A stretch of 39,117 bases of DNA from an uncultured Bacteroidales bacterium (GTDB taxonomy: Bacteria > Bacteroidota > Bacteroidia > Bacteroidales > Bacteroidaceae), in NCBI GenBank assembly GCA_902798615.1, contig CADBXL010000033.1, positions 1 to 39,117 on the forward strand. Direction: 5' to 3'. Of this stretch, positions 4,772 to 38,060 are shown piece by piece. Within the stretch, counting starts at the first letter, position 1. The number at the start of each line of letters is the position of its first letter. Made by a program: the position numbers and the translations under genes. A model generated the notes under the pieces. That model was not told the origin of the DNA, did no database searches, and saw only the letters and a program-made list of their open reading frames with translations.

Positions 4772-4805
4772 AATTATTGGTTTTAGTATTGCTGTTGTTG
4801 GTTAC

Positions 4806-16508: not shown

Positions 16509-17144
16509 ATGACAGAACGATTGGTGATATGCACCTGTCGCTGGCGTAAGTTTATTTCACAGGAAAAACTTTCGGAACTTGTTGCACATGCCGAAGCAGA
16601 AGGTCGGGAAGTTGAGTACGTGGATGATTTATGCGAGTTGATAGAGAAAGGTGATGAGGCCGAGGTCTCTCGTCTGGCTAAAGGAACGATAGCTGCCTGC
16701 CATAAACGGGCAGTAAGGAGTTTGTTGCTTTGGCGAGGTGTAGAGGTCAAGGAACTTATTGACCTTAGGGAAGGAGCTGGCGATACTGGACCGGGCAATG
16801 ATGCTTGGTATCCAGTAATCGATAAGGATCGCTGCACGGAATGCGGGAAGTGTTTCGATTTCTGTCCCTTTGGTGTTTATGAAATGGTTGATGACCGTGT
16901 GCGGGTGATGAATCCTGCAAATTGCAAGAACAACTGTCCTGCCTGTGCCCGAAATTGTCCGTCGGAGGCAATCATCTTCCCTAAATACGGTCGAAGCCCT
17001 ATCAATGGTGGAGCCGAACAGGAAGAGCAGGCACTGAGAGTTGACCATTCAATGCTCTATGCTGATGCTTTTAGGGCAAGACTGTTGGAGAGGAGAAATT
17101 TCGGAACACCGTTGTTTAAGGATGATTCAAAGTCTAAAGGCTAA
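16509..17144 (+). CDS. Ferredoxin with HdrA-like cysteine N-terminal domain
   Basis: The 211-residue protein ends in a two-cluster ferredoxin domain: C109, C112, C115, C119 (CTECGKCFDFCPFG) and C139, C143, C146, C150 (CKNNCPACARNCPSEA), both followed by the usual short strand. The first 90 residues form a separate domain with VICTC at 6-10, DLC at 40-42 and TIAACHKR at 60-67. This pattern recalls the small cysteine-containing N-terminal domain of heterodisulfide reductase subunit A, which also has C..C, C and ACSPR-like elements. It is soluble, with no signal peptide. As first gene of the operon it may feed electrons to the radical SAM protein next door. The final codons (SKSKG) come from a repeat tract that supplies the stop. 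Confidence 0.8.
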   Translation: MTERLVICTCRWRKFISQEKLSELVAHAEAEGREVEYVDDLCELIEKGDEAEVSRLAKGTIAACHKRAVRSLLLWRGVEVKELIDLREGAGDTGPGNDAWYPVIDKDRCTECGKCFDFCPFGVYEMVDDRVRVMNPANCKNNCPACARNCPSEAIIFPKYGRSPINGGAEQEEQALRVDHSMLYADAFRARLLERRNFGTPLFKDDSKSKG

Positions 17145-17277
17145 AGTCTAAAGGCTAAAGTCTAAAGTCGAAAGTCAAAAGGCGAAAGTCTAAAGGCTAA
17201 AGTCAAAAGTCAAAGGACTAAGGTTCTAACCCCTAACCTCTCCACTCTAAACTCTAACCCCTAACCTCCCCTTATGA
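17120..17277. repeat. Low-complexity heptamer tract 1
   Basis: About fifteen words of type aaagtct/aaaggct/aaagtca are followed at aaggttctaacccctaac by a pyrimidine-rich half (actctaa, acccctaacc). The purine-to-pyrimidine switch at GGTTCTAACC is itself palindromic. The same design recurs inside the permease gene at 36203-36280. Confidence 0.85.
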
Positions 17278-17292
17278 GGGAAATAAATAACA

Positions 17293-18507
17293 ATGTTATC
17301 TGATTATACATCCATAGTAAAAGCTTCGTGTCGGGTTGTCAGAGGCACAACCCCTCGGTTACTGTGGAAGTTTGTCCGGAATTTTGGATTGCGCAACCTC
17401 TCGAATATGGCGGCTTTCGAGAGAAGGGTAAACAAAGGTAAACCTTTCTTTCCTGCCTTTATGATGATATCGGTGACGGAGGCTTGCAACCTGGCATGTT
17501 CAGGTTGCTGGGTGACAAGGGGAGGCAGGAAGAGTCTGACACCCGAACAGCTTGACGGTATCATCCGTCAGTCTAAATCGCAAGGAAGCTATTTCTTCGG
17601 AATATTAGGAGGAGAGCCGTTGATGTATCGCGGACTCTTCGATGTGCTTGAGAAGCATCCAGACTGTTATTTTCAGCTTTTCACCAATGCAACGCTGATT
17701 ACAGCAGAGATAGCTCAGCGCATGAATAAGCTTGGCAATGTTACGCCATTGATAAGCATCGAGGGATTGCGCGATGAGAGTGATCGCCGAAGGGGTAGGG
17801 ATGATGTCTATGAACGTACACTAAGAGGACTGCGAATGTGTCGTGAGGCAAAGCTTATTTTCGGTGTTGCTGCAAGCATCTGCAAGTCGAACTTTGACGA
17901 CCTTGTATGTCGTAAGCATTTAGAGGATATGGCTCGTGAAGGAGCCGCCTTTATGTGGTACTATATATACCGTCCTGTGGGAGCAGATGCCCATCCAGAG
18001 AATGCGCTGAGCAAGGAGCAGATACGTCAGCTCAGGGAGTTTATCGTAGAGCAACGTCGCAATGCCCCGCTTCTTATCATTGATGTATATTGGGATGCAA
18101 AAGGCAGGGCGATATGTCCGGGAGCTACGGGTATGAGTCATCACATATCGCCATCAGGCTATGTAGAATTCTGTCCACCATTGCAGATGGCGATGGAACG
18201 GCTAAATTCCGAAGGCAGTAATCTTGTGGAGATATGTCAGAAGTCGGAGTTTCTGGCAGATATGCGAAAGATGATAGCCGAGACAACGCGAGGCTGCATA
18301 TTGATGGAATCGCCTGAGAAACTTGCCGATTTCATCGAAGCGCACGGCGGTTTTGAAACGACTTCGCGTGCTACGTTCCTTGAAGAACTGAAACGGATGC
18401 ATCATGTGGCTGGTCACGATATGAAGGACGAAGCCATACCGGAGAAGAATCCACTCTATAAGACACTAAAGAAACGCTATTTTTTCGGATTTGGAGCTTA
18501 TGGTTAA
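17293..18507 (+). CDS. Radical SAM protein
   Basis: The 404-residue protein has the radical SAM cluster motif CNLACSGC (C65, C69, C72) and GGEPL at 106-110, and a C-terminal region with isolated cysteines (AICPGATG, EFCPPLQ, RGCILME) that may bind an auxiliary cluster like a reduced SPASM/Twitch domain. Radical SAM enzymes use the 5'-deoxyadenosyl radical; the substrate here is unknown. No small peptide gene is adjacent. Placement between a ferredoxin gene and a polyprenyl synthase gene, with an 8-nt overlap with the latter, makes a lipid or terpenoid substrate the best guess. It differs from HpnH (shorter, different C-terminus), so I do not call it an adenosylhopane synthase. Confidence 0.88.
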   Translation: MLSDYTSIVKASCRVVRGTTPRLLWKFVRNFGLRNLSNMAAFERRVNKGKPFFPAFMMISVTEACNLACSGCWVTRGGRKSLTPEQLDGIIRQSKSQGSYFFGILGGEPLMYRGLFDVLEKHPDCYFQLFTNATLITAEIAQRMNKLGNVTPLISIEGLRDESDRRRGRDDVYERTLRGLRMCREAKLIFGVAASICKSNFDDLVCRKHLEDMAREGAAFMWYYIYRPVGADAHPENALSKEQIRQLREFIVEQRRNAPLLIIDVYWDAKGRAICPGATGMSHHISPSGYVEFCPPLQMAMERLNSEGSNLVEICQKSEFLADMRKMIAETTRGCILMESPEKLADFIEAHGGFETTSRATFLEELKRMHHVAGHDMKDEAIPEKNPLYKTLKKRYFFGFGAYG

Positions 18508-19996
18508 CCGCATAATACCTCAGACATTGGCTGAACGCAGAAGGCTGCGCCAGATGGCTCACGACTTTGTCAGCGAAAAGGCATTGCATCCACCTGTGAT
18601 GCTCAGCGACCTTGAAGCATTGGCTGCTGAGTTTGTCAGGAGGAATAATCTTGATGAGGGATTGCGAGACTGGCTGATGGTCGAGATACACAATGCCGTG
18701 TGGTTGCCTATGGTGGCAAGCATCCCGTATTCGCGCCGTCTGCTGTTGTTGCCTAAATGCCTGAGAGACTCCATGCGTTGCGAGGGAGAAATGGATGACC
18801 TCGGACTGCTATGTCATCGCTGTGAGCGTTGTGTCATTCCTGACCTACAGACACAGGCAGACCATATCGGAATGCTATCGATGGTTGCGGAGGGTTTCAC
18901 TTCCGTTATCGAACTGATACGTCAGCATGTCGTGGATGCGGTAATAGGTATCAGTTGTCTCGATTCCCTTGAAAAGGCTTTCCCTCTGCTTGTAAGTCAT
19001 GCAGTTCCGGGAATAGCTGTGGCCCTTAATGATGGAGGATGCAAGGACACTCATGTAGATACCGACTATGTGGCACAGTTGCTGTCGAAGCGTAGTGAAG
19101 AAACAATGATGCTCCTTGATTATGACAGCGTGCGCGAGGAGGTGGACAGATGGTTTGAGCCTGAGGCACTTGCCACGGTGCTTACTCCTGCAAGAGACAC
19201 CACGACAAAGGCAGCGTTAGAGTGGATGCTGTGTGGAGGTAGCCGATGGCGTCCGTTCCTGTTGGCGGCGGTGTATAGTGCGATAAAAGTAGAAAGTGGA
19301 AAGAGCAAGGTTGAAGATCGTTTTTCAATTCCAGACGAGGTGAAGCGTACTGCCATAGCCGTGGAGTGCTTTCATAAAGCATCGTTGGTGCACGATGATA
19401 TACAGGACAACGATGAAGAGCGTTATGGTCAGCCTACCGTTCATGCACGATATGGCGAGGCGATGGCAATCAATATTGGAGACCTGTTGCTTGGTGAGGG
19501 TTATCGGTTGTTGGCATCCTTGCCTAATAAGGAACTGCTTGGTGTTGTTGCCAATGCCCATGTCAGCCTGTGTCTCGGACAGGGAGCGGAGCTGTCTTGG
19601 CAGTCAGGACAACCCGTAACAATTGAGGAGGTATTGCAGATATTCCGTCAGAAGACGGTGCCAGCCTTTGAAGTGGCTCTTTCTTTGGGATTGCTCTCAG
19701 CAGATGGTGACGAGCATACAGCCCAGAAGCTTCATGACTATTCGGAAGCATTGGGCATAGCCTATCAACTGAAGGATGATATGTCTGATATAGACAGCGA
19801 GCATACAGCCAAGCCTTCGGCTGTATATGCACTCAGACTACAATTCCCGGGAATATCGGATGAAGAGATAAGGGATAAGATGTCGGCCATGGTGGAGGAA
19901 TATCAAACCCGTGCTCTTGCATCATTGGCAGAGATAGACAGTTTCGAGTTAAAGCGACTACTATTTCAGGCAACGGAGAGAATTTTGAGAAATTAA
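18500..19996 (+). CDS. DUF116-polyprenyl synthase fusion protein
   Basis: The 498-residue protein has two parts. Residues about 1-205 resemble DUF116, with LPKCLRDSMRC, then LLCHRCERCVIPDL (cysteines near 87, 94, 105, 108 and 111) and GISCLDSLEKAF; this domain probably binds metal or Fe-S and has no settled function. Residues about 215-498 are a trans-polyprenyl diphosphate synthase with GGSRWRP at 246-252, the first Asp-rich motif HDDIQD at 298-303 and the second, DDMSD, at 426-430. The small residues before the first motif (ASLVH) resemble long-chain synthases rather than farnesyl synthase, so a product of C25 or longer is inferred. An ATG at 18500 overlaps the radical SAM stop; a TTG at 18491 is possible. 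A repeat tract encodes KVESGKSKVED (about 263-273). Confidence 0.87.
   Translation: MVNRIIPQTLAERRRLRQMAHDFVSEKALHPPVMLSDLEALAAEFVRRNNLDEGLRDWLMVEIHNAVWLPMVASIPYSRRLLLLPKCLRDSMRCEGEMDDLGLLCHRCERCVIPDLQTQADHIGMLSMVAEGFTSVIELIRQHVVDAVIGISCLDSLEKAFPLLVSHAVPGIAVALNDGGCKDTHVDTDYVAQLLSKRSEETMMLLDYDSVREEVDRWFEPEALATVLTPARDTTTKAALEWMLCGGSRWRPFLLAAVYSAIKVESGKSKVEDRFSIPDEVKRTAIAVECFHKASLVHDDIQDNDEERYGQPTVHARYGEAMAINIGDLLLGEGYRLLASLPNKELLGVVANAHVSLCLGQGAELSWQSGQPVTIEEVLQIFRQKTVPAFEVALSLGLLSADGDEHTAQKLHDYSEALGIAYQLKDDMSDIDSEHTAKPSAVYALRLQFPGISDEEIRDKMSAMVEEYQTRALASLAEIDSFELKRLLFQATERILRN
19284..19317. repeat. Heptamer tract 2, inside the polyprenyl synthase gene
   Basis: Words of type aaagtag/aaagtgg/aaagagc/aaggttg encode a charged insertion after VYSAI, in a loop between the first two helices of the synthase domain. 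The frame is kept. Confidence 0.6.
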
Positions 19997-20053
19997 GAGA
20001 TCATAAGTTCTTAATCTCACAATCATCTCTTCCTTTTAAAATTAAGAAAACAA

Positions 20054-20776
20054 TTGGCGCGTACATTATCATATCGATTGTTGCAGGCTTTGCAGCGTGG
20101 GGCAGAACAGCTGAGTGCTGATGCCCGTCAGCGTGTATGTCAGTATGTGAACAGTCAGCGTATGACGGATGAGGCCTTTATGAATCGTGGTGGGCAACCA
20201 GACCTTTACTACACGATGTTTGGTTGGATGCTATGCTATGTCTTAGGTATCAATACTGACAGTTCTCGGCGAAAGGCATACTTGAAAGCTATTGAAACGG
20301 CAGAGCTTGATGCTCTTCATCAGACTGTATTTACAGTATGTAAGCAAATCGACAGTCTCATGTCTTTGCCAAGGTTTATGCCTCCATCTCTATTGGAGAG
20401 GGCGAGTGGAGATACAATTCTCCGTTTCTTTGATATCTACCAGAGTCATGGTAGTGGAGAAGGAACCAACGCATGGGCTGCACGACTTGCCATTACAAAA
20501 GATAACGATGCCGGACTTGTTGATAAGCTGCTATCTATGCAGCATGAGACTGGAGGCTTCAAGGCTCATGAAGGAATAGTCTTGCCTGATATGCTTAGTA
20601 CTGGCGTTGCACTCTTTGCGCTTTATGAGAAGGGAGTCACACCAAAATATGATGTCCGCCCTTTCATCGAGGCACATTGGCAGGATGACGGTAGTTTCGT
20701 TGCTACCCTGCTTGATGAGCAAGGCGATGTGGAATATGAATTTTATGGTCTGCTAACATTAGGATGTTTGCTATGA
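20054..20776 (+). CDS. Short terpene-cyclase-like alpha-toroid protein
   Basis: The 240-residue protein looks like half of a prenyltransferase/squalene-cyclase alpha-alpha toroid, with GGQPDLYYTMFGWMLCYVLG near 46-65, MQHETGGFKAHEG near 161-173 and AHWQDDGSF near 209-217, each a degenerate QW-type repeat. It lacks the DxDD motif, so it may be a partner or regulator of the complete cyclase that follows. No in-frame ATG exists upstream; I used the TTG at 20054, with the ATG at 20162 (residue 37) as alternative. A 57-bp gap separates it from the synthase gene, and its stop overlaps the next start (ATGA). Confidence 0.72.
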   Translation: MARTLSYRLLQALQRGAEQLSADARQRVCQYVNSQRMTDEAFMNRGGQPDLYYTMFGWMLCYVLGINTDSSRRKAYLKAIETAELDALHQTVFTVCKQIDSLMSLPRFMPPSLLERASGDTILRFFDIYQSHGSGEGTNAWAARLAITKDNDAGLVDKLLSMQHETGGFKAHEGIVLPDMLSTGVALFALYEKGVTPKYDVRPFIEAHWQDDGSFVATLLDEQGDVEYEFYGLLTLGCLL

Positions 20777-22506
20777 CAACGGAAGAGAAGATACAGACGA
20801 TAGTAAGCGATGCGTCAAAGCGCCTGCTCTCTATGAGGCGCGAAGACGGAATGTGGGAAGGACACCTTTCGAGTTCTGCCATATCTACATCTGTCTCTAT
20901 ATTCGCCTTGAGTGTGATAGACCATGAAAGATATCAGAAGGAGATAGAACGTGGCATACTTTGGCTTAGACAGACTATGAAGCCGGAAGGAGCATGGGGT
21001 GACAGTATAGAAAGTCCTGTGAATATGACAGCGACACTTCTGTCATACACAGCTCTGAGCCATCTACATCAAGTACCCGAAGCCACCGAACACTATATTC
21101 GTGAAACGTTGGGCTGGAAAGATGAGGCGCAGCTTATCGATGGTGTATTAGCCTATTATGGTAAAGACCTGACTTTCTCAGTACCTATCCTGATGATGTG
21201 TGCCTTGGCAGGAGTAATCAGCAACTGGAAGCGCATACCGCCGTTTCCTTTCGAACTGGCAGTGTTGCCTCAAAGCACATTCCGATTCCTCAACCTGCCT
21301 GTGGTAAGCTATGCTATTCCGGCATTGATAGCCGTTGGAATATTGCAGAACAGACGAAATAAGACATTGGTCAGTCCGGTGCGTGAACTATTTGTGCCTA
21401 AAGCACTCCGTGTGCTTACCACTTTGCAGCCAGAAGACGGAGGCTTTCTTGAGGCGGCACCCCTGACGGCATTCGTCTCTATGTGTATGGCAGAAGCAGG
21501 ACTAAAGGAACATCCTGTGACACATCGCTGTGCTCAGTTTCTTCATCAGACGCAGCGTGAGGATGGAGCATGGCCCATCGACACTAACCTTGCGGGATGG
21601 GTAACGTCACTAAGCTGCCGTGCTTTAGGAGATATGTTATCAAAAGCCGATTGTAAGGCTCTCTCAGACACTATCCGTCAGAATGCTACTAAGCGGCGAC
21701 ATCCATTTACAGGCGCAGCTGCAGGAGGGTGGGGATGGACAAATCTGAGTGGTAGTGTGCCTGATGGTGATGATACTTCGGGTGCACTCGTTGCACTCCA
21801 TACCTTGCTCAAGGGACAGTATGTTCCAGAGGTAGGAGCTGGTATAGACTGGCTTATAAAACTCCAGAACCGTGATGGCGGTATGCCTACTTTCTGTCGA
21901 GGTTGGGGCAAGCTGCCTTTTGACCGTAGCACACCCGATATTACAGCACATGCCATCTTAGCCATGAGTCTTTGGTGCGATGCCCTGCCTGACAGTCTGA
22001 AGTCGAGATGCCGTAAGAGCATCACTCGTATGAAGTCGTGGTTGGATAAAACGATGACGAATGAAGGTTCATGGAATCCGTTATGGTTTGGAGATCAGGA
22101 TGCAACTTCACAGTTTAGAGTTGAGGGGTTAGAGTTTAGAGTGGAAGCCAATCCTGTCTATGGAGCTGCAACTATCATCGACTATATGAAGACTGCTGGA
22201 ATCACATTGACTTTGGATGCCAAGGATTTTCTGTTGAAGTGTCAGAATCCTGATGGAGGTTGGGGAGGCAATCGTGGTGTTCCTTCGAAAGTGACACTCA
22301 CAGCTAAGGCTATCGGTGCTTTACGCCATTTCCTTCCTGAGACAGATGAGGCTATCCGTCGTGCTGTTGACTATCTCTATGGCCGATATGAGTCAGGTAC
22401 GCTATATAGTCGCGAACCTATCGGACTCTATTTCTCACGTCTATGGTACTCTGAAGACTTGTATAACCCAATATATCTTCTCACGGCTCTTCGCCCCATG
22501 TTATGA
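20773..22506 (+). CDS. Squalene-hopene-cyclase-like class II terpene cyclase
   Basis: The 577-residue protein has the class II cyclase protonation motif DGDDT at 331-335 (DxDDT) and several QW-type repeats (QPEDGGF, QREDGAW, QNRDGGM, QNPDGGWGG), so it should cyclise a polyprenoid by proton attack. It is slightly shorter than typical squalene-hopene cyclases (about 630). NPLWFGDQ and NPVYGAAT correspond to the conserved FG..NY.YGT region but are split by a repeat-encoded insertion (about 446-459). No squalene synthase is present, so the substrate may be a long polyprenyl diphosphate or a derivative made by the fusion synthase. I chose the ATG at 20773 because it overlaps the previous stop; 20764 is possible. 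The protein is probably monotopic on the inner membrane. Confidence 0.85.
   Translation: MTTEEKIQTIVSDASKRLLSMRREDGMWEGHLSSSAISTSVSIFALSVIDHERYQKEIERGILWLRQTMKPEGAWGDSIESPVNMTATLLSYTALSHLHQVPEATEHYIRETLGWKDEAQLIDGVLAYYGKDLTFSVPILMMCALAGVISNWKRIPPFPFELAVLPQSTFRFLNLPVVSYAIPALIAVGILQNRRNKTLVSPVRELFVPKALRVLTTLQPEDGGFLEAAPLTAFVSMCMAEAGLKEHPVTHRCAQFLHQTQREDGAWPIDTNLAGWVTSLSCRALGDMLSKADCKALSDTIRQNATKRRHPFTGAAAGGWGWTNLSGSVPDGDDTSGALVALHTLLKGQYVPEVGAGIDWLIKLQNRDGGMPTFCRGWGKLPFDRSTPDITAHAILAMSLWCDALPDSLKSRCRKSITRMKSWLDKTMTNEGSWNPLWFGDQDATSQFRVEGLEFRVEANPVYGAATIIDYMKTAGITLTLDAKDFLLKCQNPDGGWGGNRGVPSKVTLTAKAIGALRHFLPETDEAIRRAVDYLYGRYESGTLYSREPIGLYFSRLWYSEDLYNPIYLLTALRPML
22112..22147. repeat. Heptamer tract 3, inside the cyclase gene
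   Basis: Words gtttaga, gttgagg, ggttaga, gtttaga, gtggaag encode FRVEGLEFRVEA between WFGDQ and NPVYG, in the most conserved part of the cyclase. The frame is kept. Confidence 0.75.
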
Positions 22507-23939
22507 AAATGAAGAAAAAAAGTCATTATATCACAATTGCCGTCATTGCCTTCTGGACCGTTGTTCTGATTGGTTGGCACTTATATGACCCTAGTTCCCG
22601 ATTCGTTAAGTTCGAACCGGGAGCTGATAAGCGTCCTGTGGGCAGTGCGCGTAAGGCAGATGACGTGGTGATAGGCGAGTTCTTTATGAAGTACGATGCC
22701 ACTTTCACGGAAGGCATGAAAGACCAATGGTCAGGATTTAGGGGGAAAGACAGGACTAATATTGTAAGCCATGCCGTTCCTATAAAGTTAGCGGAAGGAA
22801 ATTTTAAGGAGCTATGGACTGTTGAGACAGGTGAGGGGCATGCTGCTCCTGCTGTATGGAAAGGACGCGTCTATATGCTTGACTATAATGAGCAGCTTTC
22901 CAGCGATGCCCTTAGATGCTTCGACTTGAAGACGGGAGCAGAGCTATGGCGACGTTGGTATCGAGTTCCGATGAAGCGTAATCACGGATTCAGCCGTACC
23001 ATACCTGCGGTAACGGAGGATGGCAAGGTGATGACCGTCGGACCTGAAGGACATGTAATGTGCTGCAATGGTGAGACAGGCGATTTACTATGGACGCTGG
23101 ATCTCAAAAAAAGGTTCTCTACGGAAGTCCCATTCTGGTATGCAGGTCAGTGTCCTCTGATTGTGGGCGATGAACTTGTCGTAGCTCCTGCTGGAACAGA
23201 CACGCTGATGGTAGGTCTCGATGTGGCAACAGGATCTGTACGTTGGGCAACTTCCAATGAAAAAAAGTTGAAAATGTCGCATTCATCGGTGATGCCGATG
23301 ACTTTGGGTGGTAAATTAACTTTAGTATATGCCGGCATTGGTGGTGTTTGTGGCGTTTCTGCAGAAGGGGCTGACAAAGGTAAGATGCTTTGGTTTACTA
23401 ACCAGTGGCAGCCTAGTGTCATTGCACCGTCACCGCTACAACTCAGCAGCAATCAGATATTCCTTGTGGCGGGGTATGGTGCAGGAGGCGCATTGCTGCA
23501 AGTGGATAGGGCAGGTAACGGTTGGCAGGCAAAGGTTGTTGACCAGTATAAGGCAGACAAGGGTATGAGTAGTGAGCAGCAAACCCCGATACTATACAAA
23601 GGTAATGTCATAATCATTCTACCAAAAGACGGAGGAGGAATGCGAGAGCGCGTGTGTATCTATCAGCCTACGGATTTGCATCGAACCGTATGGACATCAG
23701 CCAGTGACGAGCGTTTTGGCTTAGGCCCTTATATCGTCATAGACGGATATCTCTTTGCTTTGAAAGAAGACGGACAACTGTTCGTGTATGAAATAAAAGG
23801 CAAGGAGATGAAATTGAGGAATAGGCAAAGCGTCATCAAAGATGGAGCAGACGCATGGGGACCGATGGCATACGCTGACGGAATGCTGTTGCTACGTGAT
23901 GCCAAGACGTTGAAATGTTTTAAGATAACCCAAAATTAG
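22503..23939 (+). CDS. Membrane-anchored PQQ-like beta-propeller
   Basis: The 478-residue protein starts with KMKKKSHYITIAVIAFWTVV, a positively charged segment and one TM helix (about 9-27), so the rest should be periplasmic. Residues about 80-478 are an eight-bladed-type PQQ-like/BamB-like propeller with repeats such as AAPAVWKGRVYMLDY, CFDLKTGAELWRRW, CCNGETGDLLWTL and GLDVATGSVRW. The DQWSGFRGKDRTNIV entry motif is typical of this quinoprotein-like class. PQQ binding itself is not shown. Its start overlaps the cyclase stop (ATGA), tying the propeller to the terpenoid enzymes. Confidence 0.85.
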   Translation: MKMKKKSHYITIAVIAFWTVVLIGWHLYDPSSRFVKFEPGADKRPVGSARKADDVVIGEFFMKYDATFTEGMKDQWSGFRGKDRTNIVSHAVPIKLAEGNFKELWTVETGEGHAAPAVWKGRVYMLDYNEQLSSDALRCFDLKTGAELWRRWYRVPMKRNHGFSRTIPAVTEDGKVMTVGPEGHVMCCNGETGDLLWTLDLKKRFSTEVPFWYAGQCPLIVGDELVVAPAGTDTLMVGLDVATGSVRWATSNEKKLKMSHSSVMPMTLGGKLTLVYAGIGGVCGVSAEGADKGKMLWFTNQWQPSVIAPSPLQLSSNQIFLVAGYGAGGALLQVDRAGNGWQAKVVDQYKADKGMSSEQQTPILYKGNVIIILPKDGGGMRERVCIYQPTDLHRTVWTSASDERFGLGPYIVIDGYLFALKEDGQLFVYEIKGKEMKLRNRQSVIKDGADAWGPMAYADGMLLLRDAKTLKCFKITQN

Positions 23940-23944
23940 AATAT

Positions 23945-24973: not shown

Positions 24974-24979
24974 GGAGTT

Positions 24980-28530: not shown

Positions 28531-28534
28531 TGGT

Positions 28535-30925: not shown

Positions 30926-32942
30926 CAAGGATATATCGGTCAGCGGTCAGCGCCCTCTTATTGAGGAACTGCGAGACATGGGCATTATGGTGCCTTCAAT
31001 GTGCTATGCGGAAGGAAAAGAGCATCAGCCTTCGTGCATGGTGTGTATGGTGAAGGATGTCAGGACAGGACAAATGATACCTTCTTGCTCCACAATGCCA
31101 TACGAAGGGATGCAGATAGAGACTGATAGTGATGAAGTAAAGGAACTGCGTCGCCTATCTCTGGAACTGCTGTTGAGTGACCATCGTGCTGATTGCGAGG
31201 GACCATGCACGATAGTATGTCAGCGTGGCATAGATGTAGCAGGTGTAATCAATCTCTATGATCTTGGCAGACTGGATGAGGCTCGTGAATTGTTGGGCGG
31301 TGTGTCATGTGAAGGTTGTAAGGCTCCGTGCGAGAAAGCATGTAGGCGTTCAACCGTTGACGAGGGTGTAAAGATTAGGGAGATTCTCTCCACACTAAAC
31401 ACTAAACCCTTAACTCTAAACTCTCAATCCTCCCCTCTCAACTCTCAACTCTCAACACCAACCTCTAAATTCAACAGCCGCTTAGGTCGTTTCACAGATA
31501 AGGAGAAACTGCGTTTGAAGGAAATTTATACGCAGCCGAGCCATTGTCTGCATTGTGCCTGTGACGGTAAGGAAAAATGCAAGTTGCGTAAGTATGCCAC
31601 GGAGGCAAACATCAAGGTTACTCGATATGGATTGCAGTCTTCGCTATCTGTAAAGGAACAGATTCCTGTTACTGGGCGTTTGGTTTACGAACCTGCCAAG
31701 TGCATTCGTTGCGGACTTTGTGTGTATAATACTAATGACGGCTTTACATTTGAACGCCGTGGCTTTGATATGCGTGTGGTTATTCCAGAGGAGAGCAAGA
31801 AGCATATTAGCGATAGGATTGCAGAACTCTGTCCTACTGGTGCCCTCGTTCTGAAACTTCTGCTGCCGTTACTGGTTCTGCTCACAGGCTGTCGCTCTTT
31901 GCCTGAGAGTATGTCGGTAAGTGCTGAACTGCCTGAACATCCAAAGTTGTTGTGGGAACATCGTCATAGCGTAAGGACGGTGGCTTCGCCTGTTGCATAT
32001 AACGGCATGATACTCACTTGCGACAAGCACGGACAGATGGTGGGGCTCGATGAGGAAACAGGTGAACAACGGCTTAGCCTTGCACTTGGTTCTGATATGG
32101 AGGCCTCGTTTACAATAGAGGATTCTACGCTCTATGTTGGAATGCTTGACGGTAAAGTGCGTTCTCTGTCTTTGCCTGACGGTTCAGAGCGATGGAGCTT
32201 TGCCACAGAAGGGCAGATTTTGGCGAAACCAACTTTAACCTCTAACCCCTCCCCTTCAGCCCTCTTCATAGGCAGCTACGATAATTACATGTACACGCTC
32301 TCACCTTTGACGGGTAAACTCATCAATCGGGTAGAAACAGGCAATTATATCAATGGTGCTGCTGTGCTTTGGAAGGATTATGTCCTCTTCGGAGGCTGCG
32401 ATTCATGGGTACGTATTGTTGACGGAACAACTGGAATTCTTGCTGATTCACTAAAATTAGATGCCTATATCCCTGCCTCTCCTGTGGTTGATGGGGATAA
32501 TGTGTATGTGGCTGATTATCGTGGCGATGTATATGAACTGACCCTTGCCGATGGAGGTCGCATAACGAACCATCGGAAGTTGCTTTCAGCTGCGGAGGAT
32601 GATGGTGGAATGCTTTCCGTACCTGTTGTTACTGAGGATGCACTCTATCTATTGACAACTGACCGCCGTTTGATGTGTCTCGATCGCAAGGAAGGAAAGG
32701 AGAAATGGTATGCCTTGCTTAAAGGTGATGCGGGTGAGTGTAGTCCTATATTGGTGGATAACCGTCTGCTGGTATGTACCAAGACAGGTATTGTCAGCAT
32801 TCATGAAGTTTCTACAGGAAGGCAGCTTTGGGAATATGAAACAGGAGAACAAATCATAGCGCAACCGCTTGTTATAGGTTCGCATTTTTACATACAAACT
32901 GCACGTGGCACCTTGCTGTGCTTCGGAGAACGTGAAGAGTGA
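30906..32942 (+). CDS. NuoG/HydA-type Fe-S domain fused through a lipobox/TM to a beta-propeller
   Basis: The 678-residue protein starts as a NuoG-like [2Fe-2S] domain (C33, C44, C47, C61). An alpha-helical ferredoxin-like section follows (DCEGPCTIVC at 96-105, C135-C146), then further Fe-S motifs (C214-C225; C266, C269, C272; C309). Residues 314-329 are hydrophobic and end LLTGC, a perfect lipobox, and residues about 345-678 are a PQQ-like propeller. The polypeptide would thus span from a cytoplasmic electron acceptor to a periplasmic propeller. I chose the ATG at 30906 (MRISVNNKDI) over 30885. The codon before the hydrophobic run is CTG at 31851, where an ATG would give an ordinary lipoprotein start, hinting at fusion of two genes. 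A repeat tract encodes residues 162-189. Confidence 0.85.
   Translation: MRISVNNKDISVSGQRPLIEELRDMGIMVPSMCYAEGKEHQPSCMVCMVKDVRTGQMIPSCSTMPYEGMQIETDSDEVKELRRLSLELLLSDHRADCEGPCTIVCQRGIDVAGVINLYDLGRLDEARELLGGVSCEGCKAPCEKACRRSTVDEGVKIREILSTLNTKPLTLNSQSSPLNSQLSTPTSKFNSRLGRFTDKEKLRLKEIYTQPSHCLHCACDGKEKCKLRKYATEANIKVTRYGLQSSLSVKEQIPVTGRLVYEPAKCIRCGLCVYNTNDGFTFERRGFDMRVVIPEESKKHISDRIAELCPTGALVLKLLLPLLVLLTGCRSLPESMSVSAELPEHPKLLWEHRHSVRTVASPVAYNGMILTCDKHGQMVGLDEETGEQRLSLALGSDMEASFTIEDSTLYVGMLDGKVRSLSLPDGSERWSFATEGQILAKPTLTSNPSPSALFIGSYDNYMYTLSPLTGKLINRVETGNYINGAAVLWKDYVLFGGCDSWVRIVDGTTGILADSLKLDAYIPASPVVDGDNVYVADYRGDVYELTLADGGRITNHRKLLSAAEDDGGMLSVPVVTEDALYLLTTDRRLMCLDRKEGKEKWYALLKGDAGECSPILVDNRLLVCTKTGIVSIHEVSTGRQLWEYETGEQIIAQPLVIGSHFYIQTARGTLLCFGEREE
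31389..31478. repeat. Heptamer tract 4, inside the Fe-S/propeller fusion gene
   Basis: About twelve pyrimidine-rich words (actaaac, tctaaac, tctcaac types) encode a Ser/Thr/Leu/Asn-rich linker between two Fe-S sections. The frame is kept over about 90 bp. Confidence 0.85.
32229..32264. repeat. Heptamer tract 5, inside the propeller part of the same gene
   Basis: aactttaacctctaacccct and adjoining bases encode TLTSNPSPSA between two blades. Confidence 0.6.
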
Positions 32943-33032
32943 ATAATGAATAGTGAATAGTGAATTTATCACTAATCTCTAAACTTTCAACTCTAAACTC
33001 TCAACCCTCAACCCTCAACTCTAAACTTTAAT
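32943..33032. repeat. Heptamer tract 6, before the ABC ATPase gene
   Basis: The intergenic gap starts with agtgaataatgaatagtgaa words, then runs through tctaaac, tttcaac, tctcaac, cctcaac words up to the start codon. It replaces any normal ribosome-binding sequence; TTTAAT just before ATG is all that remains. Confidence 0.85.
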
Positions 33033-33740
33033 ATGGCATATATCGAACTGAACAATATACAAAAGAGCTTTGCCGATGGCAATGGCGGGCAGCGCATTGT
33101 GCTCGACGAACTTAGTTTGGAAGTAGAACCGGGTGCCTTTGTGGCTGTGACTGGCGTATCAGGTACAGGCAAGACCACATTGCTGAATGTGCTTGGAACA
33201 CTTCTGAAGCCTGATGGTGGTACCTATCTGTTAGGCGAAGAGCAGATACCATACGATGATGAAGCAAGGCTGTTGCAGATTCGTAATCGTCAGATTGGAT
33301 TTATGTTTCAGGATTACCGTCTCCTGCCTCAGTTCACGGCATTGCAGAATATCCTGTTACCTACATTGGCAATCCATAGGAAACCTACAACGGAGGAAAC
33401 GCAGTGGGCTATGCAGCTTGCACAACAAATGGGTATAAGCGATATTCTGCAACAATTGCCAGAAACACTATCTGGAGGAGAGAAAAGTCGTGTAGCCCTA
33501 TGTCGTGCCCTTATTATGCGTCCTAAACTGCTCTTGGCAGATGAGCCTACAGGACAGCTTGACAGTCAGCATGCCAAGGAGGTTGGACAGTTGCTAAGGC
33601 ACGTAAACACTCAGATGGGCATGACCATTATCCTTGTTACCCACTCTGAGGAATTGGCTTCCATTGCCGATAAACGTTATGTGCTTAAGGAGGGAAAAGC
33701 GTTTAGTGTCCAACCCTCACCTCTAACCTTTAGCCATTAG
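33033..33740 (+). CDS. ABC transporter ATP-binding protein (LolD/MacB type)
   Basis: The 235-residue ATPase has Walker A GVSGTGKT at 41-48, a Q-loop at Q93, the signature LSGGEKSR at 146-153, Walker B LLLADE at 166-171 and the switch histidine in VTHSEE. Size and sequence fit the LolD/FtsE/MacB subgroup, which energises FtsX-like permeases in lipoprotein extraction, lipid or peptide export, or envelope control. The permease follows after 8 bp. The last residues (VQPSPLTFSH) come from a repeat tract. In this operon it may export or place the terpenoid product or the propeller lipoproteins; this is inference. Confidence 0.92.
   Translation: MAYIELNNIQKSFADGNGGQRIVLDELSLEVEPGAFVAVTGVSGTGKTTLLNVLGTLLKPDGGTYLLGEEQIPYDDEARLLQIRNRQIGFMFQDYRLLPQFTALQNILLPTLAIHRKPTTEETQWAMQLAQQMGISDILQQLPETLSGGEKSRVALCRALIMRPKLLLADEPTGQLDSQHAKEVGQLLRHVNTQMGMTIILVTHSEELASIADKRYVLKEGKAFSVQPSPLTFSH
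33708..33735. repeat. Heptamer tract 7, at the end of the ABC ATPase gene
   Basis: tccaaccctcacctctaacc encodes the C-terminal tail, ending 4 nt before the TAG stop. Confidence 0.55.
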
Positions 33741-33748
33741 ACATAAAA

Positions 33749-36715
33749 ATGAAAAGAAGTCGTTCATATTACAAAAAGTTCTATCGGCTCGTTGCTGTGG
33801 CTATCGCAGTAATGACAGCCGTGCTGACGGGCAGTCTCGTTTTAGGCGATTCTGTGCGTGGCTCTCTGATGGAACGTGTCAGCGAACGACTTGGAAACTC
33901 AGAAACAATAATCCAGACAGGCACAGGTTTTCTGAGCGATTCCATTCTTAACAACGAAATTCTATCAGATGCCAAAGGCTATCTGCTTTCCGAAGGCTTC
34001 ATTTCTTCTGAAGGCAAGATGATTCCTGTCATGGTTTGGGGTACCGACAATGATTCCCTGAATTATGATGAGGCTACTCTAAACCCTCAACTCTCAACTC
34101 TGATCTCTAACCCCTCCCCTCTAACCCCTAACCCCATTGTCCTTCATCTCCCCTCAAACAATCTCGTTGGTTCTAGTTCCCTTTTCATCTCCCAGAGTCA
34201 TGCCACGCAGTTGCGACTCACCGTAAAGGGAATAAAGTCGGCTCAGGATGGGGGAAACATATTGCTTCATAATGAGCAGGTACGTCCGCTTAACGTGTTT
34301 ATCAACCGTCAGCAGTTGGCAGAGGCATTGGGAGTGAAGGGTAAGGTTAATGTCATCCTGTCACCAAACAATATTACTTCCGATACCTTCTACGGAGTAT
34401 GGCGACCAGAAGATTCAGGACTGCAATTTAATAGTGACAGTATAGTTGGCATTGACCGTGTATTCCTGCCTCATAGCGTTGTGGAAACCCTCAACCCATC
34501 TACCCGCTATCTGGCTTATTTTGTCAACAGTCTCGGCACTATACCTTATTCGTTTGTTACGGCTACCGATAGGCTGAAAGGTGATGAGACCATACTGACT
34601 GACTATGCCGCCCAACGTATGAATGCTCATGTGGGCGATTCTGTCACTATGGAATATTATGTCTCACAAGGTGGATTGAAGAAATTACTGACACGCAGCC
34701 ATCGTTTCCGTGTGAGTGGCATTGTTCCTATTAATGAGTTCCAGAAACAGGCAGATATGATAACTGCTGATTTTCCGGGACTATCGGGCGTTAAGCGTTG
34801 TACCGACTGGAATAGCGACCTGCCTATTGACATGAGCCGTATAACAAAGGCTGATGAGGACTATTGGACTGCATATCGACAGACTCCCAAGGCTCTTGTG
34901 AGCCTCGATGTCGTTGGAAAGGATTGGATCGGTTCTTATGGTGTTGCAACAAGGGTGATGTGTGATACTGCTCGTATGAAACTACTCACTCCGCAATCAT
35001 TCGGTATAGCGGTGGTGCATCCTCGCATAGCAGCCCTGGATGCTGCGCAGAATGGCACAGACTTCGGTACGCTCTTCCTGGCTTTAGGCTTCTTCATCAT
35101 TATCGCTGCAATATTGCTGATGCAGAACCCTCTTTCTGAGATGTATCAGTTGCGACGCCCTGAGATACAATTGCTCAATGCTTTGGGATTCAGCAAGCGT
35201 CAGGTGTTCCGAAGACTGTTCTCGGAGGCTGTACCTGTAGTGCTCGTATCTGCGCCCATAGGTGTATTATTGGGCTATGCCTACGCTGCTGTTATTCTCC
35301 AGCTTCTGGCAGGTCCGTGGAGTGGGGTAGTGCATACCGATGGTTTTGCCATACATGCAAATACCACGACGGTTGTTCTGTCTTTTATCCTCTCTGTCAT
35401 CCTTGCCTTTGTTGTTCTTGCGCTTACTGTCAGGGGAGGTCAAAGGTCAAAGATCAAAGGTCGAAGTCGAAATAATCACTTGCTTCAGCTTGTTGAGCCT
35501 TGCGAAAAATTATCAATTATCAACTATCAATTATCAATTATAAAATACTTCCGCCACCAGCACCGTCTTTCGTTCATCACATTGGCATTAGGTGTTCTGA
35601 CGGTGTTTGCCGTGGGAGTAAACCGTCCTGATTTTTCCCATTCTTCAGAATCTGCAACAGGCGGATATCAGTATTATGGTGAGAGTCGCATCCCTTTGCA
35701 GTATGACCTCAACACGGCAGCAGGTCGCAATCATCTGCATCTTGACAACCTGCCATCCAATCTCCGTTTCCTCCAGTTGCCAAAGCATACTGAGGATGAG
35801 GCAAGCTGCATGAATCTGAATCATGTCGAGAAACCTTCAGTCTTTGGTATGTCTCTCGAAGATATGAAGGCATTCGGAATAAATATCTCGGAAGTAGAAG
35901 GTGTAAAGTATAAAGTAGATAGTGTAAAGTGGAACTGCGAAGCTGATGAGCTTGCGAATAAAGAAGAAAGTAAATGCACGATTCCCATCGCCGTTGATTC
36001 TGATGCTTTGCTTTGGAGTATGATGAAGAAGGTGGGTGATACGCTTACCTATCACGCAAGTGACGGACGTAAGGTTAATGTCGTTATAGCAGCCGAATAT
36101 CCTACAGGCATATTCCATGGAAATGCCATTATGCCTATCGACTGTTTCCGTCAGCTCTGGCCCGATGAAATGGGCAGTCGTGTGGTATTGGTAAAGGAAG
36201 ATGGTCAAAAGTCGAAGGTCGAAGGTTCTAACCCATCCCCTCTAACCCCTAACCCCTCAACCCTAACCTCCACTCTCACCACTTCGCTCTCCGACTACGG
36301 CTTCACCCTTATCCCATCCGTAGAGCGTCTACTTCATTTCTTCGAAGTGACTGATACCTATCTCCGTATCTTCCTCTCCCTCGGATTACTCGGTCTGATG
36401 CTCGGTTTGGTCAGTCTGCTAATCGTCATCCGTAAGAATCTGGTGGCACGTAGTGAGGAGATACACCTGTACCACGCTTTAGGTTTCCCTACAGCTACCA
36501 TAGTGCGTATGTTCCGATGCGAACAGCTCATCGTGCCTCTGCTTGCTATAATTACAGGTGCGGGAGTGTGTCTGTTGATTTCAGTCCTCCTTCCTACCTT
36601 CAGCTTCAGTCTTTCCACGTTCCTCCTATGCCTCTTGCCAATAATAGTATTTACATGCATAATCATATATATAAGTATAACTACAAAAACAATCAGACAA
36701 TGCGAAACGTGTTAA
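33749..36715 (+). CDS. FtsX/MacB-like ABC permease, two-domain
   Basis: The 988-residue permease starts with one TM helix (about 13-33), followed by a large periplasmic domain. TM clusters follow near 430-455, 485-510 and 530-555, a second TM start near 600, another periplasmic domain, and a final TM group in the last 130 residues (LRIFLSLGLLGLMLGLVSLL and after). It thus has two FtsX-like modules in one chain, partnering the ATPase 8 bp upstream. Four repeat tracts lie inside it, including one at about 560-600 that also contains a copy of the dispersed 48-bp repeat translated as NHLLQLVEPCEK. Despite these the frame is open. Substrate unknown. Confidence 0.88.
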   Translation: MKRSRSYYKKFYRLVAVAIAVMTAVLTGSLVLGDSVRGSLMERVSERLGNSETIIQTGTGFLSDSILNNEILSDAKGYLLSEGFISSEGKMIPVMVWGTDNDSLNYDEATLNPQLSTLISNPSPLTPNPIVLHLPSNNLVGSSSLFISQSHATQLRLTVKGIKSAQDGGNILLHNEQVRPLNVFINRQQLAEALGVKGKVNVILSPNNITSDTFYGVWRPEDSGLQFNSDSIVGIDRVFLPHSVVETLNPSTRYLAYFVNSLGTIPYSFVTATDRLKGDETILTDYAAQRMNAHVGDSVTMEYYVSQGGLKKLLTRSHRFRVSGIVPINEFQKQADMITADFPGLSGVKRCTDWNSDLPIDMSRITKADEDYWTAYRQTPKALVSLDVVGKDWIGSYGVATRVMCDTARMKLLTPQSFGIAVVHPRIAALDAAQNGTDFGTLFLALGFFIIIAAILLMQNPLSEMYQLRRPEIQLLNALGFSKRQVFRRLFSEAVPVVLVSAPIGVLLGYAYAAVILQLLAGPWSGVVHTDGFAIHANTTTVVLSFILSVILAFVVLALTVRGGQRSKIKGRSRNNHLLQLVEPCEKLSIINYQLSIIKYFRHQHRLSFITLALGVLTVFAVGVNRPDFSHSSESATGGYQYYGESRIPLQYDLNTAAGRNHLHLDNLPSNLRFLQLPKHTEDEASCMNLNHVEKPSVFGMSLEDMKAFGINISEVEGVKYKVDSVKWNCEADELANKEESKCTIPIAVDSDALLWSMMKKVGDTLTYHASDGRKVNVVIAAEYPTGIFHGNAIMPIDCFRQLWPDEMGSRVVLVKEDGQKSKVEGSNPSPLTPNPSTLTSTLTTSLSDYGFTLIPSVERLLHFFEVTDTYLRIFLSLGLLGLMLGLVSLLIVIRKNLVARSEEIHLYHALGFPTATIVRMFRCEQLIVPLLAIITGAGVCLLISVLLPTFSFSLSTFLLCLLPIIVFTCIIIYISITTKTIRQCETC
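34075..34137. repeat. Heptamer tract 8, inside the permease gene
   Basis: Words aaaccct, caactct and taacccc encode a Pro/Ser/Thr/Asn-rich stretch (TLNPQLSTLISNPSPLTPNP) in the first periplasmic domain. Confidence 0.8.
35435..35545. repeat. Composite tract 9 in the permease: heptamers, dispersed repeat, atcaatt words
   Basis: Purine-rich gtcaaaggtcaaagatcaaa words (35435-35471) run directly into a copy of the dispersed 48-bp repeat (35472-35511, acttgcttcagcttgttgag) and then (atcaatt/atcaact)n words to 35542. All are translated in one frame in the loop before the second FtsX-like module. Confidence 0.8.
35891..35931. repeat. Heptamer tract 10, inside the permease gene
   Basis: Words gtagaag, gtgtaaa, gtataaa, gtagata, gtgtaaa encode VEGVKYKVDSVK in the second periplasmic domain. 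Confidence 0.65.
36203..36280. repeat. Heptamer tract 11, inside the permease gene
   Basis: Purine-rich gtcaaaagtcgaaggtcgaa words switch at ggttctaaccc to pyrimidine-rich words (cctctaacccctaacccctc). This is the same purine-pyrimidine design and switch sequence as the intergenic tract at 17120-17277. Confidence 0.8.
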
Positions 36716-37980
36716 TCATGATGGCACTCGCTGTTAGTGCCTGCACATCAACGGCTCAGACGCAGTTCACCAAAGGTCCGAGTGTGAACGGATGGCGTGG
36801 AGCCCAGAACAATGGTTCCTATCCTGACAAGGGACTATTCAACCAGTGGCCTGCCGAGGGTCCTCATAAGATTTTCGAGGTAGAGGATGCCGGAAAGGGA
36901 TATTCCTCTGCACAGGTGGTGGGCGACCGTATCTACCTCACCGGTCTCAATGATCAGGAAGACAAGGAAATGCTCAGCTGTTATCGTCTTGACGGTACAA
37001 AGGTATATTCTGTTGAATATGGCAATCGTTGGACTGGTTCTTATCCAGAGGTTCGTACCACCCCTACATATAGCGATGGCAACATCTACGTGATTAGTGG
37101 TATGGGCGAGGTTGTATGTATCAAAGCTGAGGATGGAAAGATAGTATGGTCTGTGAATGGTGGCGAGAAGTACAGCCGTAGCACAGGCATGTGGGGCACA
37201 AGTGAGTGTCCGCTGGTGTATGACGACAAGGTAATCTATACTCCTTGTGGCAATCAGACCACTATGGTTGCCCTCAATAAGTTCACAGGCGATGAGGTAT
37301 GGAAGACTCGTGCCTTGAACAACAAGAGCGGCTATGTGTCACCTATCCTTATTGAATATAAGGGCAAGCGACAGATTATCAGCTCATCTGCTCTCACAGT
37401 CTTCGGTGTTAATCCAGAGACAGGTGAGATAGAATGGACCTTCGATGATTGGGGACCAAAGCACTATGGCAATTCAAGCCGTTTTGACAACATCGCCACC
37501 AATTCACCACTCTATCGTGATGGTAAGATATTCTTCTGTCATGGTTATGACATCAACGGTTTCCAGCTCCAGCTCGCTGATGATCTGAAGAGCGTTACCT
37601 GCGTATGGCGCACAGAGACTCTCGACACCCATCACGGCGGTTATGTACTCGTAGGCGACAATATCTACGGCTCTAACTGGATTAACAACAATGCAGGTAA
37701 CTGGTGCTGCATAGACTGGAACACAGGTAAGACCAATTACGAAACCGCTTGGCAGGGAAAAGGCAAAGGCTCTATCATTACAGCCGATGGCAAGCTCTAC
37801 TGCTATGACGAGCGTCGTGGTATGGTAGGACTTGTAAAGGCCGCACCTGATGCCTTCAACGTAGTAAGCGAGTTCCGTATTGTGAAGGGTAGCGGACCTT
37901 ATTGGGCACATCCAACCATTGCCGATGGCATTCTCTACGTCCGTCATGCCGGAGCATTCTATGCTTATAAGATAAAGTAA
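36700..37980 (+). CDS. Lipoprotein PQQ-like beta-propeller
   Basis: The 426-residue protein starts with a lipoprotein signal (MRNVLIMMALAVSACTS, cleavage before the Cys) and forms a PQQ-like propeller: WRGAQNNGSYPDKGLF entry, then blades such as EVVCIKAEDGKIVWSVNGGE, ALNKFTGDEVWKTRALN and GVNPETGEIEWTF. I chose the ATG at 36700; it overlaps the permease stop by 16 nt, and the in-frame ATG at 36517 lies deep in the permease gene. ATG 36718 would also leave a short signal. It is the fifth propeller protein of the operon and the last gene, followed by a terminator. It is probably attached to the periplasmic face of the outer membrane. Confidence 0.87.
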   Translation: MRNVLIMMALAVSACTSTAQTQFTKGPSVNGWRGAQNNGSYPDKGLFNQWPAEGPHKIFEVEDAGKGYSSAQVVGDRIYLTGLNDQEDKEMLSCYRLDGTKVYSVEYGNRWTGSYPEVRTTPTYSDGNIYVISGMGEVVCIKAEDGKIVWSVNGGEKYSRSTGMWGTSECPLVYDDKVIYTPCGNQTTMVALNKFTGDEVWKTRALNNKSGYVSPILIEYKGKRQIISSSALTVFGVNPETGEIEWTFDDWGPKHYGNSSRFDNIATNSPLYRDGKIFFCHGYDINGFQLQLADDLKSVTCVWRTETLDTHHGGYVLVGDNIYGSNWINNNAGNWCCIDWNTGKTNYETAWQGKGKGSIITADGKLYCYDERRGMVGLVKAAPDAFNVVSEFRIVKGSGPYWAHPTIADGILYVRHAGAFYAYKIK

Positions 37981-38023
37981 TCTATTATCCTAATAGTATC
38001 ATAGATTTATTTGATTATATATG

Positions 38024-38060
38024 CCAGTTCTAAATAAACTTAGGACTGGTATATTTTTTT
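38024..38060 (+). terminator. Terminator of the 15-gene operon
   Basis: A 10-bp stem (CCAGTTCTAA with TTAGGACTGG, one G:T pair, 38024-38033 with 38040-38049) is followed by a run of eight T at 38053-38060. It lies 43 nt after the last stop codon. Confidence 0.88.

Follow-up and report, generated by a model that had tools for sequence, protein, structure and literature searches.

What a cyclised polyprenoid has to do with an NADH-linked electron chain is the question raised by contig CADBXL010000033.1 of an uncultured Bacteroidales bacterium (assembly GCA_902798615.1), where putative genes for both stand in one array. The window analysed here is the entire contig (G000:C33; G, C and L numbers are our handles for genomes, contigs and loci), 39117 bases of a 3.46 Mb genome in 55 contigs that is 94.75% complete. 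Fifteen open reading frames (ORFs), g01 to g15, span positions 16509–37980, all on the plus strand, and all fifteen were confirmed to exist. The block is two modules in one array. Module 1 (g01–g05, 16509–22506) encodes a ferredoxin, a radical SAM enzyme, a fusion of DUF116 with a polyprenyl diphosphate synthase, a small toroid and a class II terpenoid cyclase. Module 2 (g06–g15, 22503–37980) encodes an NADH flavoprotein, Fe-S proteins, beta-propellers, a membrane polyferredoxin and an ATP-binding cassette (ABC) transporter. The two modules co-occur far beyond chance. We give about an even chance to the reading that module 1 would make a cyclised polyprenoid with a reductive or radical modification, that module 2 would pass NADH electrons across the membrane to exported Fe-S and propeller proteins, and that the lipid would serve this chain where both modules are present.

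The gene assignments of module 1 were confirmed by Pfam, by which we mean matches above the curated cut-off. They bear out the ferredoxin, the radical SAM protein, the DUF116-polyprenyl synthase and the two toroids, one of them with DGDDT, of the original prediction, which had been made from the DNA alone. The ferredoxin g01 has a cysteine-containing N-terminal domain that presumably resembles the N-terminus of HdrA; in some other phyla its counterpart is two separate genes. In g02, C65, C69 and C72 of the CxxxCxxC motif and four more cysteines (125, 275, 294, 335) are invariant in 26 aligned sequences. The DUF116 domain of g03 has seven invariant cysteines (C87, 94, 105, 108, 111, 153 and 181; 28 rows). 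The synthase half carries the two motifs that identify a trans-polyprenyl diphosphate synthase: the first, HDDIxD, is invariant in the 28 rows, and the second reads DDxxD in 22 of them, the window's included, DDxxE in L055 and NDxxD in five planctomycete rows. The nearest solved structures to g04 by sequence are the beta subunit of RabGGTase and class II cyclases, and on such comparisons it would belong to the prenyltransferase-beta/terpene-cyclase superfamily; its D50, Y52, Y53, D179, T183, D225 and E227 are invariant (28 rows). With DxDD in a two-toroid protein, g05 qualifies as a class II terpenoid cyclase. All 89 aligned cyclases have the motif (as DADDT in 70, DGDDT in 17, DADDS and DTDDT in 1 each), the alignment consisting of the window and 88 of 90 locus ORFs, with two half-length pieces omitted. 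Segments of the SQHop_cyclase_C type in the bacterial class II sesquiterpene cyclases PDB 7xqz and 8zg0, which we take to be drimenyl diphosphate synthases, are similar to g04 and g05, but the similarity is weak (33–42 bits).

Module 1 behaves as a closely knit unit. When public genomes were scanned with the cyclase, relatives came up in 256 stretches. The best 80 of these, which were kept, include rumen Prevotella/Bacteroidaceae, Tannerella, Marinifilum, Lentisphaerae, Kiritimatiellales, Acidobacteria, Planctomycetes, Verrucomicrobia, KSB1, Poribacteria and others. Across these phyla the same gene order comes back, ferredoxin, radical SAM, DUF116-polyprenyl synthase, small toroid, cyclase, and all five genes stand together in 36 of the 80 loci fetched, in at least six phyla by record title. 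In some planctomycete loci the cyclase precedes the synthase and there is no toroid match. Synthase and cyclase were both matched in 32 loci (31 outside Bacteroidota and Marinifilum L029; L090 is included on a weak synthase match, its genome being without the fusion), and these held the toroid in 27 cases, the ferredoxin in 24 and the radical SAM gene in 23. The cyclase was found in 10 of 198 genomes of the window's order, and among the matches listed the full DUF116-polyprenyl synthase fusion occurs in exactly those ten (in G137 as two pieces on two contigs); the other synthase matches listed begin at model position 186 or beyond and cover the ordinary synthase half only. For other phyla, the fusion was present in 31 of 35 cyclase genomes. 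These loci were chosen mostly because no synthase had been seen beside the cyclase; five (L044, L053, L056, L066 and L086) did have one there, and without them the count is 26 of 30.

The likely substrate of g05 is the product of the g03 synthase or something derived from that product. The window genome has no match to PF00494 (squalene/phytoene synthase), and the family is absent from 22 of the 41 module-1 genomes, the window's included; the ten Bacteroidales cyclase genomes comprise five with it and five without. Of named strains with module 1, Brevifollis gellanilyticus and Rubripirellula obstinata have PF00494 enzymes, and Marinifilum sp. N1E240, which carries both modules, gave no match. 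Its absence from the window genome and from 21 of the 40 other module-1 genomes speaks against an ordinary squalene-hopene pathway and, taken with the constant polyprenyl diphosphate synthase partner, points to the synthase's own product or a derivative.

Further genes near module 1 in the 32 loci include a CobW GTPase (19), a GcvH-like protein (18) and a cysteine desulfurase (16). The models for them were trained on such loci, and the cysteine desulfurase was recognised by reading only. A lipoyl-lysine-like ExxK motif is present in five of nine printed GcvH-like rows, L072 being a row in the wrong frame. These neighbours, none of which lies within the window operon, suggest Fe-S or sulfur chemistry. 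They are frequent in Acidobacteria, Planctomycetes and Verrucomicrobia, groups whose module-1 genomes mostly lack module 2. In all five planctomycete loci ordered cyclase-synthase (L053, L056, L066, L086 and L092), a UbiC-like gene follows the DUF116 synthase. Aligned by hhalign with one sequence, E. coli UbiC, it gave a probability of 74 and an E value of 2.8e-5, and UbiC M35, R77 and E156, which we take to have active-site roles, face invariant columns of the planctomycete genes (counted by eye). At this gene the PF01947 model found nothing (its one match, of 13 bits, lay elsewhere), and neither Pfam at E 1 nor a PDB profile search returned anything of that kind. A chorismate lyase (UbiC) identity is a lead, and would hint at an aromatic headgroup. 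UbiA-family prenyltransferases, our proxy for conventional quinones, are present in 47 of 52 genomes and absent in five.

Module 2 also holds much of what had been claimed for it. The NapH-type membrane protein (Fer4_5 and Fer4 in g09), the ABC exporter (ABC_tran and FtsX matches) and the two substrates of twin-arginine translocation (Tat) stand, as does the cyclase reading of g05 (SQHop_cyclase N and C). Of five propellers, four were confirmed by PQQ_2 (g06, g10, g12 and g15), but the fifth, g07, has matches under the cut-off (16 bits in Pfam, 28.5 bits in NCBIfam). NCBIfam gave no match up to its curated cut-off for any of g01–g15 (25 best per protein). Both g07 (SRRRFLQ) and g08 (ARREFLR) carry an RRxFL motif, read by eye, and TatC is present in the window genome (G000:C45) and in 19 of 19 genomes tried; with a twin-arginine signal and TatC in the genome, the two proteins qualify for Tat export. 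The membrane polyferredoxin g09 has two Fer4_5 motifs and ferredoxin clusters and is closest to NapH/MauN and NosR. It differs from NapGH and NosR in that the block holds no nitrate or nitrous oxide reductase, and its 59.1 bits against NapH/MauN TIGR02163 lie below the cut-off of 213. NapG is a Tat ferredoxin, as is g08.

The reading of g11 as an NADH diaphorase was upheld by Pfam (2Fe-2S_thioredx, Complex1_51K and NADH_4Fe-4S), but as a plain NuoEF it was dropped, the NfnB/HydB type being closer. Among solved structures it is closest to NfnB (9n5u_B; residues 189–794, 665 bits), with chains of formate dehydrogenase complexes and HydB coming next. Like NfnAB/HydABC and the related formate dehydrogenases, g11 has a NuoE domain, a second thioredoxin-like region, a flavin mononucleotide domain and a C-terminal 4Fe-4S dicluster. 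It thus combines the HydC/NuoE and HydB/NfnB-type parts that mark a HydABC/NfnABC flavoprotein. The Fe-S part of g12 matches NfnA. Unlike these complexes, the block has no hydrogenase or formate dehydrogenase domain, its core is paired with a membrane NapH-type protein, and g12 covers only the two ends of NfnA (residues 10–172 and 581–702) without the middle, which we take to be the NADPH/flavin adenine dinucleotide (FAD) domain. By Pfam, no third-partner site (hydrogenase, formate dehydrogenase or NADPH domain) is present in g12, which sets it apart from a HydABC/NfnABC A subunit. A shortened NAD(P)/FAD-like domain is found in the Fe-S subunit of L181 (16264–17847), L178 (16064–17665) and L202, and the domain is gone in L190 (13919–14974, by Pfam) and in the window; L179 is equally short. 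The Fe-S subunits of module 2 seem to show stages in the loss of this domain. The g11/g12 pair looks like an Nfn/Hyd-type core whose third site has been reduced or lost, and its electrons would leave through the membrane protein g09. Electron bifurcation is a feature of NfnAB/HydABC-type complexes and of related formate dehydrogenases; the record of one, 8a6t, itself names it. The Fe-S protein and the lipoprotein-like propeller, fused in g12, are encoded by separate ORFs in L013, L017 and L027, and in six Lentisphaeria stretches (L213, L214, L215, L217, L218 and L219) the Fe-S part is fused to g11 and not to a propeller. Fusion with the propeller in the window and with the flavoprotein in those six stretches ties these proteins together.

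The Tat ferredoxin g08 was used as the marker of module 2. It occurs in 35 of the 198 genomes of the window's order, in 8 of 10 with the cyclase against 27 of 188 without (Fisher p=1.6e-5; G136, one of the 27, is a weak match), and by family in 7 of 8 with the cyclase against 21 of 112 without (p=1.3e-4, the total taken as 120 families); the genomes are related, and the p-values overstate their independence. The class of G206 (Lentisphaerae bacterium GWF2_50_93, L030), called Lentisphaeria here from the titles of its members, was sampled with 197 genomes. The marker was found in 45 and the cyclase in 47; both occur in 42, the cyclase alone in 5, the marker alone in 3 and neither in 147, which puts the marker in 42 of 47 genomes with the cyclase and in 3 of 150 without it (p=1.3e-33, kinship ignored). 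Of the 42 genomes with both, 25 have the two genes on the same strand within 15 kb (the order is the window's in 23 and the reverse in 2), and 17 have them far apart or on different contigs. Nine Lentisphaeria stretches were fetched, seven chosen for known close markers and two, L220 and L221, from cyclase-only genomes, where only the cyclase was seen. The six stretches named above have g01–g11 in the window's order, and L216 runs from the synthase to g10 and then meets the contig end. Among the six, an ABC ATPase follows in five, FtsX matches in four, and a g15-type propeller precedes g01 in five, whereas in the window g15 closes the operon. Between g01 and g11, five of them have no unmatched same-strand ORF of at least 100 amino acids; in the exception, L218, there is such an ORF of 237 codons, or else a shorter ORF that overlaps it. 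Most of the fifteen genes therefore recur in the same order in a second, distant phylum, and the original prediction of a conserved array as opposed to scattered genes is supported.

Module 2 also exists alone, without module 1. Stretches were fetched from 20 of the 27 cyclase-negative, marker-positive genomes. Genes of the g07 and NapH types lie beside the marker in all 20, a g10-type propeller in 18 and the flavoprotein in 17. Module 2 usually starts with g15-type propellers (0–4 copies near module 2 in the relatives fetched) and continues with g06–g11, Fe-S protein, propeller, glycosyltransferase, ABC and FtsX, the last three in part of the loci only; the glycosyltransferase is present in 13 of 40 loci scanned and missing in the window. 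Layouts of the pair vary. Module 2 comes before module 1 in Marinifilum (L029/L198) and GWF2_50_93 (L030/L199), and the modules converge in L033/L201. They are both present but apart in G112, where two g06-type propellers lie directly upstream of module 1, and in G197, and they are on separate short contigs in G016 and G100. On a cyclase tree (ORFs under 450 amino acids excluded; four unknown states set by hand; L029 set to linked by hand, module 2 having been seen beside its cyclase), the linked state needs at least four changes, with 40 of 87 rows of unknown state. The window's clade adjoins Lentisphaerae L028 and L031, which makes transfer of the array between phyla plausible.

Could the two modules be independent operons that happen to lie side by side, one for a general membrane lipid and one for a separate envelope electron system, their linkage the result of co-transfer in an island? 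We regard this as rather unlikely, although several observations lean that way and weigh against our own reading. Separate distributions had been set beforehand as a result that would refute a joint system, and they were found in part. The marker is present in 22 of 58 module-1 genomes and missing in 36 (the 58 being 50 of the 80 fetched loci, picked by hand, and 8 genomes from the 198-genome order set), and 27 of 188 genomes have it without the cyclase. Grouped by record title, it occurs among the 58 in 1 of 9 Acidobacteria (weak), 2 of 9 Planctomycetes (one weak) and 1 of 14 Verrucomicrobia. The cyclase also occurs without the marker in G167 (97% complete) and in five genomes of the G206 class. 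Module 1 without module 2 in 36 of 58 genomes implies that the lipid is useful in its own right. In the fetched flank of many Verrucomicrobia loci no other module-1 gene accompanies the cyclase, the fusion being elsewhere in the genome; a PF00494 enzyme, one or more, is present in 19 of the 41 module-1 genomes; the block encodes no terminal reductase or known acceptor; and kinship inflates the p-values given above. The separated modules of G112 and G197, the different short contigs of G016 and G100, and the mobile-element-like repeats that flank the window copy would also suit independent operons. Yet the co-occurrence holds even in G112 and G197, where the modules are apart, and reaches 42 of 47 against 3 of 150 in Lentisphaeria. 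Three layouts (module 1 then 2, module 2 then 1, and convergent in L033) and the changes of linked state on the tree likewise speak against independent operons. The joint system that had been proposed is partly supported: its two modules do go together, though each also occurs outside the pair.

Other explanations concern one module each. That module 1 is a divergent hopanoid-type pathway, with a squalene-hopene cyclase and an HpnH-like radical SAM protein, strikes us as highly improbable. It has in common with the hopanoid pathway a DxDD class II cyclase of the same superfamily, with matches to squalene-cyclase families, and a radical SAM partner that weakly matches HpnH, and 19 of the 41 genomes could supply a PF00494 enzyme. 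However, g05 scores 71.6 bits against squalene-hopene cyclase TIGR01507 (cut-off 431) and g02 43.6 bits against HpnH TIGR03470 (cut-off 225), and the block has its own DUF116-polyprenyl synthase as a constant partner and a second toroid. The hopanoid pathway proper was rejected on these curated cut-offs and the missing PF00494 match in the window genome. Module 2 might, by analogy with the part that NosR and NosDFY play for nitrous oxide reductase, be a maturation machine and not a respiratory chain; it would then provide both electrons and components for the assembly of an exported cofactor or of a lipid-linked product. The NosR/NapH-like g09, the ABC transporter, the several propellers without a recognised enzyme domain, the lack of a terminal reductase in the block and the glycosyltransferase in 13 of 40 loci would fit such a role, which we nevertheless consider unlikely; no candidate client enzyme appeared among the gene clusters common to at least four fetched loci. 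A bolder and equally doubtful proposal takes its hint from the UbiC-like gene in the five planctomycete loci: module 1 could yield a membrane redox carrier of a new class, in which a cyclised polyprenyl tail bears an aromatic or otherwise redox-active headgroup, and module 2 would be the dedicated chain that charges this carrier from NADH or ferredoxin and reduces something outside the membrane with it.

The reading that we prefer, a cyclised lipid serving an NADH-driven envelope chain, would proceed as follows. The synthase half of g03 would build an all-trans polyprenyl diphosphate, and it is this chain, not squalene, that the DxDD cyclase g05 would protonate and cyclise together with its partner toroid g04. 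The radical SAM enzyme g02 with the cysteine-rich DUF116 domain, supplied by the ferredoxin g01, would add a reductive or radical modification. In module 2, g11 would take electrons from NADH, possibly with ferredoxin, and these would pass through the NfnA-like g12 to the NapH-type g09 in the membrane and on to the Tat-exported g08 and the propeller proteins outside it. The g13/g14 exporter may move a lipid or lipoprotein part of the system. Most likely, the cyclised lipid would serve the envelope part of the electron chain in lineages with both modules; the earlier claim that a cyclised terpenoid is a lipid or carrier of this chain is unproven.

Literature searches of open-licence PubMed Central (PMC) papers found no description of the gene set. 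A DUF116-polyprenyl synthase fusion has been noted for Pirellula Psta_0175, and electron transfer has been proposed for DUF116 (PMC5898192); the passages of that paper on the Pirellula fusion and archaeal DUF116 mention no cyclase, radical SAM partner or similar operon. No system known to us can accommodate this one, and its novelty lies there and not in any demonstrated function; its parts belong to known superfamilies. On the preferred reading, an undescribed system would be common to Bacteroidales and Lentisphaeria, with joint selection for a cyclised isoprenoid and an NADH-driven envelope electron conduit. With the five-gene core together in 36 of 80 loci and at least six phyla, the lipid that it makes would be expected to be widespread among bacteria, although in many hosts the DxDD cyclase has no squalene synthase to supply it, and DUF116, a function-unknown entry in Pfam, would gain a role.

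Table 1. Genes and signals of the fifteen-gene block, with positions in the window.
Feature	Positions	Strand	Assignment	Remarks
Candidate −7 promoter box	16454–16461	+	TATCTTTG	weak; upstream of g01
g01	16509–17144	+	ferredoxin, 4Fe-4S dicluster (Fer4)	Cys-containing N-terminal domain
g02	17293–18507	+	radical SAM enzyme (Radical_SAM)	CxxxCxxC
g03	18500–19996	+	DUF116 fused to trans-polyprenyl diphosphate synthase (polyprenyl_synt)	both Asp-rich motifs
g04	20054–20776	+	small alpha/alpha toroid (Prenyltrans)	28.2 bits, cut-off 26.5
g05	20764–22506	+	class II terpenoid cyclase, squalene-hopene cyclase-like (SQHop_cyclase N and C domains)	DGDDT
g06	22503–23939	+	PQQ_2-type beta-propeller	hydrophobic N-terminus, membrane anchor read by eye
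g07	23945–24973	+	Tat-signal protein, conserved Cys	weak propeller matches
g08	24980–25558	+	Tat-signal polyferredoxin	at least two 4Fe-4S motifs
g09	25551–26783	+	NapH/NosR-like membrane polyferredoxin (Fer4_5/Fer4)	
g10	26764–28530	+	PQQ_2-type beta-propeller	hydrophobic N-terminus, membrane anchor read by eye
g11	28535–30925	+	HydC(NuoE)-HydB(NfnB)-type NADH flavoprotein fusion	C-terminal 4Fe-4S dicluster
g12	30906–32942	+	NfnA/NuoG-like Fe-S protein (Fer2_4) fused to PQQ_2 propeller	
g13	33033–33740	+	LolD/MacB-like ABC ATPase (ABC_tran)	
g14	33749–36715	+	FtsX-type ABC permease	
g15	36700–37980	+	PQQ_2-type beta-propeller	lipoprotein-like start (by eye)
Intrinsic terminator	38019–38054	+		15-pair stem (4 G-C pairs), then T6

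The one-direction genes with overlaps or tiny gaps of the original prediction were found at 11 of the 14 junctions, which overlap or have a gap of at most 8 nt by the assigned starts and stops, but not at three larger gaps, between g01 and g02, before the small toroid g04 and before the ABC ATPase g13. From g01 to g15 the junctions measure 148, −8, 57, −13, −4, 5, 6, −8, −20, 4, −20, 90, 8 and −16 nt. The overlap of 4 bases between g05 and g06 means that translation of both halves is probably coupled in the window. Starts were corrected for g15 (near 36700, not 36517) and g12 (an ATG), and that of g03 is probably the ATG at 18500.

The strong terminator was borne out (Table 1). The good promoter candidate fared less well: a single box lies upstream of g01, drawn from what we take to be the −7 consensus, but the window as a whole has 31 TANNTTTG boxes against 25.6 expected, this one among them, and the two-box pattern is absent upstream of g01. 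With the box near chance frequency and no two-box pattern there, the g01 promoter is a candidate only, and promoter statistics across the window gave no clear support.

The block lies among repeats. A 720-bp element resembling a miniature inverted-repeat transposable element (MITE) occupies 15577–16296 and ends 213 bp upstream of g01; its terminal inverted repeats are 47 nt long and 98% complementary, and it lacks any ORF of at least 80 amino acids. Its end sequence, GGGGTGTCTCTAAAAA, has one further copy at 38123, about 70 bp past the operon terminator. An imperfect 14-nt tandem repeat (AAAGTCTAAAGGCT) at 17129–17226 begins within the final codons of g01 and runs through much of the g01–g02 gap. 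Immediately upstream of the MITE-like element is a SulP/DauA-like anion transporter (13825–15489). Further upstream of the operon, a CatA-like O-acetyltransferase of family 2 (12743–13363; 326 bits, cut-off 250) adjoins a GNAT-like gene, and a Type I restriction-modification locus (HsdR, HsdS, HsdM) occupies 1458–8379; between HsdS and HsdM lies a gene with a Fic domain, and next to HsdS one whose protein has a borderline match to 23S-IVP.

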